Assembly (NCBI GenBank): GCA_947626665.1
Contig: CANQTB010000002.1
Span: 1 to 34,009 of the forward strand
Origin: an uncultured Eggerthellaceae bacterium
GTDB taxonomy: Bacteria > Actinomycetota > Coriobacteriia > Coriobacteriales > Eggerthellaceae
Direction of reading: 5' to 3'
DNA: 34,009 nt
Shown here: one piece after another, positions 7,871 through 20,626 of the stretch
Layout of the letters: every line of letters begins with the position of its first letter
Position numbering within the stretch: position 1 is the stretch's first letter
Program-made: the position numbers and the translations under genes
The notes under the pieces: generated by a model
The model's input: the letters and a program-made list of their open reading frames with translations, nothing else
Told to the model about the DNA's origin: nothing
Database searches by the model: none

Positions 7871-7898
7871 TTGACATACAAACACCTGTTCGTATAAT
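7871..7898 (+). promoter_or_regulatory. recA promoter with SOS (LexA) box
   Basis: -35 TTGACA (7871-7876), 16-bp spacer, -10 TATAAT (7893-7898); CAAAC-ACCT-GTTCG (7879-7892) fills the spacer, one mismatch to CGAAC-N4-GTTCG. Confidence 0.88.
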
Positions 7899-7965: not shown

Positions 7966-9024
7966 ATGAACGAAGAAAAAGAGCGCATGTTGAAGATGAC
8001 GACCGATCAGATTGAATCGAAGTTCGGCCGTGGATCCATCATGAAACTCGGTGACGGAGATGCTGATCTCTCTCTTGGCGTTATTCCAACCGGCGCTTTG
8101 CCTCTCGATGCGGCACTCGGCATCGGCGGTGTTCCCCGAGGTCGCATCATCGAGATTTTCGGGCCCGAATCAAGCGGAAAAACGACTCTCGCCCTTCAGA
8201 TTCTCGCAGAGGCGCAGGCAGCGGGCGGTGTCGTGGCATTTATCGATGCGGAGCATGCACTCGATCCCCTCTATGCAGCACGAATTGGCGTTGATATCGA
8301 CGAGGTGCTCATTTCCCAGCCGGATACCGGCGAGCAGGCTCTTGAGATCTGCGACATGCTCGTGCGTTCGGGGGCGATTGATTGCGTCGTCGTCGACTCT
8401 GTTGCGGCCCTCGTTCCTCGTGCCGAGATCGAAGGCGAAATGGGGGAGGCCACGGTCGGTTTGCAGGCGCGCTTGATGTCTCAGGCGTTGCGCAAGCTTG
8501 CGGGTTCTCTCTCAAAGTCGAACACGACCTGCATCTTCATCAATCAGCTCCGTGAAAAGATCGGGATCATGTTCGGCAATCCGGAAACCACAACCGGAGG
8601 ACGGGCCTTGAAGTTCTTCTCGTCGGTACGCATCGATATCCGCCGTGTTGATTCCATCAAGCAGAACGGGGAGGTCGTCGGGAATCGCGTTCGCGCAAAG
8701 GTCGTGAAGAACAAGGTCGCTCCGCCATTCAAGCAGGCTGAATTCGATCTCATGTACGGCGAAGGCATTTCACGTGAGGGCTGCATCCTCGATATGGCGG
8801 TGGAATGCGGGGTTGCGAAGAAGAGCGGTGCTTGGTACACCTATGGGGAAGAACGGCTCGGCCAGGGTCGTGAGGCAGCGAAGCAATTCTTAAAAGATAA
8901 CCCCGATTTGCGCGACACCATTGAGAAAAAGGTTCGCGAAGCTTACAACATCCCCTTGATTGAACGCTCCCCTGAAGAGGCAAGTGCGATCAACCCAACT
9001 CCGAAAACGGGGAAGAAGAAATAG
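7966..9024 (+). CDS. recA: Recombinase A
   Basis: [52 protein letters not shown]. Confidence 0.99.
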
Positions 9025-19109: not shown

Positions 19110-19748
19110 CTAGATGCGCCGGAAGAGCGCAACGACCTTTCCGGCGATCGTGCAGTCCCTCGTGATAATGGGATCCATGGATGAGTTCTCCGGTTGAAGG
19201 CGGACGTAGTTCTCTTCGCGATAGAATCGTTTTACCGTGGCGCCGTCATCCATAAGCGCGACGACGATATCGCCATTGTCGGCCACGGGCTGCTGCTTGA
19301 CGACAACATAATCGCCATCGTTTATTCCGGCCTCGATCATCGATTCCCCTCGCACGGAGAGCAAAAACGACGGCGAATCGCCAACGATGTCGGTCGGCAA
19401 GGTAATGACATCGGTGATGTTCTCCTCAGCAAGAATAGGCGTGCCAGCTGCAACGTTTCCAACCAGCGGAAGATCTACGAGCTTGCTGAAACTCGGTCGG
19501 ATGATCGGCGTTTCATCGGCTGCCTGCGTGAGGGGATAGGTGAGTGCAATGGAGCGGGACTTGAGCGGATCGCGCTTGATGAGACCTTTGTTTTCAAGGG
19601 CCTTGAGATGAACGTGGACCGTGGAAGGGGAGGAAAGGTTCAGCTTCTGGCACACCTCACGCACGGTAGGGCCGTATCCCTTCTCCCGAATGCTCTCTTC
19701 GATGCAATTCAGAACCGCCTGCTGGCGTTTCGTCACTTTCTCGCTCAT
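19110..19748 (-). CDS. lexA: LexA repressor
   Basis: wHTH N-terminus (QQAVLNCIEESIREKGYGPTVREVCQKLNLSSPSTVHVHLKALENKGLI), AG cleavage site VAAGTPI, catalytic Ser (RGESMI) and Lys (ATVKRF). ATG 19748 (GTG 19751 also possible). Confidence 0.97.
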   Translation of the reverse strand: MSEKVTKRQQAVLNCIEESIREKGYGPTVREVCQKLNLSSPSTVHVHLKALENKGLIKRDPLKSRSIALTYPLTQAADETPIIRPSFSKLVDLPLVGNVAAGTPILAEENITDVITLPTDIVGDSPSFLLSVRGESMIEAGINDGDYVVVKQQPVADNGDIVVALMDDGATVKRFYREENYVRLQPENSSMDPIITRDCTIAGKVVALFRRI

Positions 19749-19772
19749 CACATGTTCCTCTCAAAAAATATC

Positions 19773-19793: not shown

Positions 19794-19847
19794 TTGACGT
19801 GAACCTTTGTTCGATTTATTATAACAGCGAACAAAGGTTCTATGCAA
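19794..19847. promoter_or_regulatory. Divergent SOS promoters with two LexA boxes forming a 13-bp inverted repeat
   Basis: + strand: TTGACG (19794-19799)-17 bp-TATTAT (19817-19822). - strand: TTGCAT (revcomp of 19842-19847)-18 bp-TATAAT (revcomp of 19818-19823). Boxes GAACCTTTGTTCG (19801-19813) and CGAACAAAGGTTC (19828-19840). Confidence 0.88.
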
Positions 19848-19865
19848 GAGCGTGAGGTGATAAAA

Positions 19866-20042
19866 ATGATGCGAGCGCTTCCTCAGTCTTCAGGTTCACG
19901 GTATTATCCCGGAACGTTAGCTGAACTTTGCTATGGGCGCGTAAGCGGTGTGCCGGTAGATCATTTTTCCAAAAAGCAAATTTTTGCAGCGTTTCTTTGC
20001 GGTATCCTCATGGCATGCATTGCGCTTTTCGTCTGTCCCTAG
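19866..20042 (+). CDS. Small (58 aa) putative SOS-inducible C-terminally anchored membrane protein
   Basis: SD GAGGTGA then ATG 19866: MMRALPQSSGSRYYPGTLAELCYGRVSGVPVDHFSKKQIFAAFLCGILMACIALFVCP; one C-terminal hydrophobic helix; divergent from lexA behind SOS boxes. Confidence 0.75.
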   Translation: MMRALPQSSGSRYYPGTLAELCYGRVSGVPVDHFSKKQIFAAFLCGILMACIALFVCP

Positions 20043-20103: not shown

Positions 20104-20133
20104 TTGGAATATGACCCCAATATGTTGTATGAT
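20104..20133 (+). promoter_or_regulatory. Candidate nrdR promoter
   Basis: TTGGAA (20104-20109)-18 bp-TATGAT (20128-20133); palindrome GGGAAGCTTCCC at 20074-20085 just upstream. Confidence 0.4.
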
Positions 20134-20164
20134 GTGCGCACTCGATATGAAACGAGGTGAAGCC

Positions 20165-20626
20165 ATGCGGTGCCCGTCATGCAACCATAGCGAATCGAAA
20201 GTTATCGACTCTCGGCCATCTGATGATGGGGGATCCATTCGCAGGCGGCGTGAATGCCTTGCTTGCGGCCATCGGTTTACCACCTATGAACGTCTTGGGG
20301 AAAATCCTATCATTGTCATTAAGGCAGACGGATCGTCGGAGGCTTTCGATCGCGCGAAACTCATGCGGGGCATCCTTACGGCTTGTGCGAAACGTCCGGT
20401 AACGCCGGAAAACATCGAAGCTCTCACGGCTGCGATCGAAACCGACCTACGATCGCTACCGCGTGGAGAAGTACGTTCAAAAGATCTCGGCGATATGGTT
20501 TTGGCGCGGTTGGCCGATCTTGACGATGTGGCATATATCCGTTTTGCAAGCGTTTACAAAGACTTTCAGAGCATCGCAGAGTTCTCAGATGCTCTGAACG
20601 AGCTTTCCGATGAAAGAGAGGCCTAA
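20165..20626 (+). CDS. nrdR: Transcriptional repressor NrdR
   Basis: MRCPSCNHSESKVIDSRPSDDGGSIRRRRECLACGHRFTTYER zinc ribbon plus ATP-cone. Confidence 0.97.
   Translation: MRCPSCNHSESKVIDSRPSDDGGSIRRRRECLACGHRFTTYERLGENPIIVIKADGSSEAFDRAKLMRGILTACAKRPVTPENIEALTAAIETDLRSLPRGEVRSKDLGDMVLARLADLDDVAYIRFASVYKDFQSIAEFSDALNELSDEREA

Follow-up and report, generated by a model that had tools for sequence, protein, structure and literature searches.

The 58-codon open reading frame (ORF) that diverges from lexA in this stretch of Eggerthellaceae DNA (34,009 nucleotides, hereafter the window) probably encodes a small membrane protein repressed by LexA, one of the SOS division inhibitors divergent from lexA and one whose extracellular LysM domain has been lost. 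In Gram-positives, SOS genes that diverge from lexA encode division inhibitors (PMC6851548), and the gene described here shares their position under LexA boxes. The evidence comes from the operator region, from the coding sequence, and from a family of relatives in which the steps of reduction can be followed.

LexA boxes and promoters between lexA and the small gene

The sequence-only reading had placed two mirror-image SOS boxes, as an exact 13-bp inverted repeat, between divergent promoters with lexA on the left and nrdR on the right, and this layout is borne out. GAAC-N4-GTTC is contained in both GAACCTTTGTTCG (19801-19813) and CGAACAAAGGTTC (19828-19840), and the one sequence is the exact reverse complement of the other. 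The promoter scan recovers the proposed rightward promoter, and the leftward one can be made out by eye, with a weak -35 (3/6), although TTGCnT is conserved in Eggerthellaceae. The features of the locus are as follows, with dut coming after nrdR.

19113..19751, minus strand: lexA (213 aa, GTG start), its product 80-94% identical in many Eggerthellaceae and about 50% in Bacilli
19794..19822, plus strand: small-gene promoter TTGACG-17-TATTAT (promoter scan)
19801..19812, no strand: LexA box 1, GAACCTTTGTTC, in the rightward promoter spacer, where it covers the expected start point of lexA
19818..19847, minus strand: lexA promoter TTGCAT-18-TATAAT (by eye), its -35 containing a decoy ATG at 19842
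19829..19840, no strand: LexA box 2, GAACAAAGGTTC, in the lexA promoter spacer and over the expected small-gene start point
19851..19858 (approximate span), plus strand: Shine-Dalgarno GAGGTGAT, which most relatives have in this position too
19866..20042, plus strand: 58-codon SOS membrane peptide (MMRALPQ...FVCP), supported by dN/dS against the sister species and by the family in 98 loci
19920..19970 (approximate span), plus strand: juxtamembrane part LAELCYGRVSGVPVDHF, with the conserved LRxGxxxG element
19971..20033, plus strand: C-terminal transmembrane (TM) helix, residues 36-56 (AlphaFold2; hydropathy)
20165..20626, plus strand: nrdR, the next gene downstream of the 58-codon ORF

Each box occupies one promoter's spacer and, by its position, covers the likely start point of the other promoter, so that LexA should shut both at once. 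GAAC-N4-GTTC occurs three times in the 34-kb window against 0.51 expected from shuffling, the third site (23856) being within a coding ORF. The motif is supported as the SOS operator here by recA (7966-9024, same window), where a one-mismatch box, AAACACCTGTTC at 7880-7891, lies between the gene's own TTGACA and TATAAT, the same arrangement of box within spacer as in the lexA region.

Among relatives the operator is highly regular. LexA was found in 131 of 140 Eggerthellaceae genomes, and 91 of the 109 lexA-nrdR gaps of sufficient length carry two exact boxes (consensus TTGACAtGAACnTTTGTTCGntnTATtaTAtacaCGAACAAAGGTTCTAnGCAAG), 28 bp apart in 83 and with an identical box 2 sequence in 64 of the 91. 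The rightward -35 (TTGACA, at most one mismatch) follows the small gene: it is kept at 94 of the 96 ORF-bearing loci vs 2 of the 11 that lack the ORF (Fisher p 8e-10, uncorrected for phylogeny, and related genomes are not independent). Where the ORF is missing, the rightward -35 is usually gone too and the boxes often remain for lexA. At two loci of genus g47 from which the small gene has been lost (L206 and L207), the LexA boxes have decayed too, to GAATTTATGTAC and GAACATTGGTAC.

The 58-codon gene and its family

Translation is best placed at 19866, where most relatives start too and where a good Shine-Dalgarno precedes the start codon. The in-frame ATG at 19842, which would give 66 aa, was rejected: it belongs to the lexA -35, being the reverse complement of part of TTGCAT, and many relatives read ACG there. 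By its substitution pattern the ORF is evidently a real gene under purifying selection, because comparison with the sister species (G043, the only other genome of the window genus) gives a Nei-Gojobori dN/dS of about 0.14, at synonymous sites near saturation. Eleven independent pairs give a pooled value of 0.26 by the same method. The sister species and the family likewise dispose of the idea of an orphan ORF.

A short N-terminus followed by one C-terminal TM helix had been read from the letters, and AlphaFold2 prediction and hydropathy agree: the helix is modelled confidently (pLDDT above 90) at residues 36-56, ending two residues before the C-terminus, and the N-terminus is of low confidence. 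The conservation in relatives that the same reading had looked for was also found, in the form of a lexA-divergent ORF with a TM at 98 Eggerthellaceae loci, most of them with two boxes at the 28-bp spacing; ORF, Shine-Dalgarno and promoter are retained in about 90% of Eggerthellaceae. No Pfam or NCBIfam model covers the protein, and searches of open-access papers for SOS and LexA in Eggerthella and in Coriobacteria found nothing on it.

A typical member (median 103 aa) consists of MKNFExxYPVxGTSALxP...xIIxFP, a variable linker, LRxGxxxGxxxGRMxxWQA, the TM and the stop codon. The N-terminal motif is present in 75 of 98 by a strict regular expression and in a few more with close variants; one 106-aa ORF (L134), read by eye, has GSSAL. 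Between TM and C-terminus lie 0-1 residues in 89 of the 98 and at most six in all of them. The 12 residues ahead of the TM hold 1.8 K/R vs 0.5 D/E, and these basic residues predict an N-in orientation; a single membrane-spanning helix, N-in, is thus predicted, as in the lexA-divergent division inhibitors. Within the TM, small residues are repeated at spacings of i+4 and i+7 (z 3.4 and 5.9 vs shuffled TMs, among related sequences that are not independent), a spacing that may be read as a packing face of the helix.

The same anatomy bears on an alternative of a different kind, namely a TisB/DinQ-like toxin with one TM, induced by SOS, which would depolarise the membrane and slow growth, with the divisome not its target. 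E. coli DinQ fits this description, being small, single-TM and controlled by LexA (PMC3567139), and the 23-aa forms described below match the DinQ/TisB type in size. DinQ and TisB are SOS-controlled single-TM peptides too; they are, however, type I toxins with an antisense RNA, and most Eggerthellaceae members are longer, at about 100 aa, have a conserved motif in the cytoplasmic part, and have relatives with LysM. Pore formers are amphipathic, whereas the 19-residue TM core is uncharged in 81 of 98 members. A toxin is accordingly unlikely.

Loss of LysM and stepwise reduction

A TM-LysM protein of the YneA/ChiZ type occupies the same place in other orders and, in the sister families f2 and f3 (presumably Atopobiaceae- and Coriobacteriaceae-like), at eight loci; wherever these proteins were scanned Pfam LysM was found, in one case narrowly below the curated cut-off. 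The two groups have a cytoplasmic N-terminal motif in common, GTSAL...VIEGG in the sister families and GTSAL...IIxFP in Eggerthellaceae. An HMM built from residues 1-45 of the Eggerthellaceae proteins matches five of the eight f2/f3 LysM proteins at 8.7-14.2 bits and, copies of the gene itself set aside, 2 of about 2590 unrelated stretches. Nineteen of 20 further f2/f3 proteins have the motif (GTAAL...LVEGG and similar), and 18 of these further proteins have LysM (14 by regular expression, four more by Pfam). LysM proteins from outside the order did not show GTSAL. Given this common motif and the TM-LysM protein at the same place, the Eggerthellaceae protein is that protein minus its LysM, homologous to it via relatives. 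Common descent holds for the family; since the window copy is without the N-terminal motif, its own homology rests on the sister species, the locus and the juxtamembrane element. The earlier suggestion of a LysM-less functional analogue stands as to the missing LysM, the single TM and the SidA-like economy, but the protein is not a mere analogue, being homologous to the sister-family TM-LysM proteins through its relatives.

The absence of the extracellular LysM of the YneA/ChiZ family is consistent across the family, with none detected by Pfam and none encoded in any of six frames of 110 Eggerthellaceae gaps, so that a LysM hidden in another frame or in a separate gap ORF was rejected. Two proteins of one f2 genus (L312 and L314) have the N-terminal motif and the C-terminal TM without LysM, an independent loss with the same outcome and the rest kept; an f4 protein (L265) likewise has GTSALKP and a C-terminal TM without LysM. 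On a LexA+NrdR tree the LysM-less families need two changes, one for Eggerthellaceae with f4, f6 and f7 and one for f8, with modest support.

Reduction did not end with LysM. The window peptide had been called much shorter than its counterparts, and at 58 aa it is, but as a reduced member of a family usually of about 100 aa: its sister species has 97 aa with an N-terminal motif degenerate at best, and the window copy has none, though ELCYGRVSG and the TM remain. The protein measures 33-34 aa in genus g32. In genus g2 a 23-aa bare TM peptide, MARYEFPIAFALSTIASFVIFFA, with a strong Shine-Dalgarno and both LexA boxes, is found in eight species (L158, L164, L170, L171, L176, L177, L183 and L190), and one pair of these peptides differs by 9 synonymous vs 0 nonsynonymous changes (Nei-Gojobori). 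The gene is lost altogether in members of six genera (g3, g19, g30, part of g47, and single species of g44 and g41) and is therefore not essential. At L234 the ORF appears frame-broken, with the SATIIPFP motif and the C-terminal TM out of frame with the start, either as a pseudogene or through an assembly error.

Such shortening in steps, the complete losses and the frame-broken copy are what would be expected of a decaying remnant whose activity went with LysM, the window copy, its N-terminal motif also gone, being on the way out. That account is improbable: purifying selection acts on the window pair and extends to the 23-aa forms, most of the family keeps ORF, Shine-Dalgarno and promoter, and the f2 genus lost LysM independently with the rest kept. 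A selected, reduced division inhibitor remains the preferred reading.

Known inhibitors and a possible mechanism

The gene for ChiZ (Rv2719c) adjoins lexA and nrdR in Mycobacterium. By description ChiZ is similar to the Eggerthellaceae protein in its SOS control and in its disordered cytoplasmic N-terminus with one TM, and differs in having an outside linker and LysM. Its N-terminus plus TM suffices for filamentation, and it binds FtsQ and FtsI (PMC7355643). YneA of Bacillus subtilis, likened again by description, is divergent from lexA with a single TM; it docks on FtsW TM7 via its own TM and blocks synthesis via LysM, so that its TM by itself reaches the divisome by way of FtsW TM7 but is inert, and YneA without LysM is inactive (PMC13396833). 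YneA thus needs the LysM that the Eggerthellaceae protein, with no outside part at all, does not have. SosA of Staphylococcus is divergent from lexA and without LysM, but is inactive without its extracellular C-terminal segment (PMC6851548), a segment for which the Eggerthellaceae protein leaves no room, its TM ending 0-6 aa from the C-terminus in 98 of 98. DivS of Corynebacterium glutamicum is, by description, a further lexA-linked actinobacterial SOS inhibitor without LysM (PMC6851548). SidA of Caulobacter, a tiny single-TM SOS inhibitor by description, has 29 aa and acts on FtsW (PMC4211646). It differs in size and in having no such cytoplasmic motif. To our knowledge, SidA is not lexA-divergent.

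The Eggerthellaceae protein is best read as a variant of the known lexA-divergent division-inhibitor kind without the part outside the membrane, one that would act through its TM and cytoplasmic segment. Given that it keeps the half sufficient in ChiZ and is without the parts that YneA and SosA need, docking by the TM and juxtamembrane segment would be the likeliest mechanism. RecA would trigger LexA self-cleavage, both boxes would clear, and lexA and the small gene would be transcribed in opposite directions. The protein, predicted to insert N-in with its TM at the extreme C-terminus, would then most likely use both its TM helix and the adjoining juxtamembrane segment to dock on the septal complex for wall synthesis, on the FtsW/FtsI/FtsQ side, and the docked complex would be held inactive without peptidoglycan contact, blocking late cell division. 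This genome has FtsW/RodA-family candidates at L293-L295. SOS induction, an FtsW-type target and the division block itself are all putative. Since YneA loses its activity with LysM, and SosA with its outside part, a form that has neither might also act otherwise. A membrane protein with some other SOS role, such as control, in the course of repair, of a protease or a wall enzyme, would fit the cytoplasmic GTSAL...IIxFP motif, which could bind any partner, and the SOS box that also precedes an M23-like wall-enzyme gene in the window genus; locus and homology favour the division-inhibitor kind, and such a role is very improbable.

More broadly, and tentatively, the whole family may consist of SOS division inhibitors that act only inside the membrane, LysM having been removed at least twice and then the cytoplasmic motif, down to a selected 23-residue TM peptide. 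If so, that peptide would be the smallest lexA-divergent inhibitor, and a TM alone could silence septal wall synthesis. The outside part is essential in YneA and SosA, whose TM-only constructs are inert, and the inside half suffices in ChiZ, which raises the question of which part blocks. A gene that has dropped the outside part, yet is held under selection across dozens of genera, amounts to a natural experiment on that question, and it offers a graded size series (about 150, 100, 58, 33 and 23 aa) for one assay.

Several minor observations concern other SOS sites and the neighbouring genes. A wider own-genome regulon drawn from exact boxes was rejected, most of the 23 sites lying inside genes and looking like chance, and no LexA box was seen near dinB. 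An exact box, CGAACAAATGTTC, with TATGAT just downstream, precedes the coiled-coil M23/LytM-like wall-enzyme gene (assigned by eye) at L284, about 1503-1514 (G000:C39:5222), and at L331 in the sister species; it is conserved in both species of the window genus and was not seen in 11 other genera tested. Finally, at about 20116-20134, before nrdR, CCAATATGTTGTATGATG (in relatives CACAATATGTAGTATGAT) resembles an NrdR box over the nrdR promoter.
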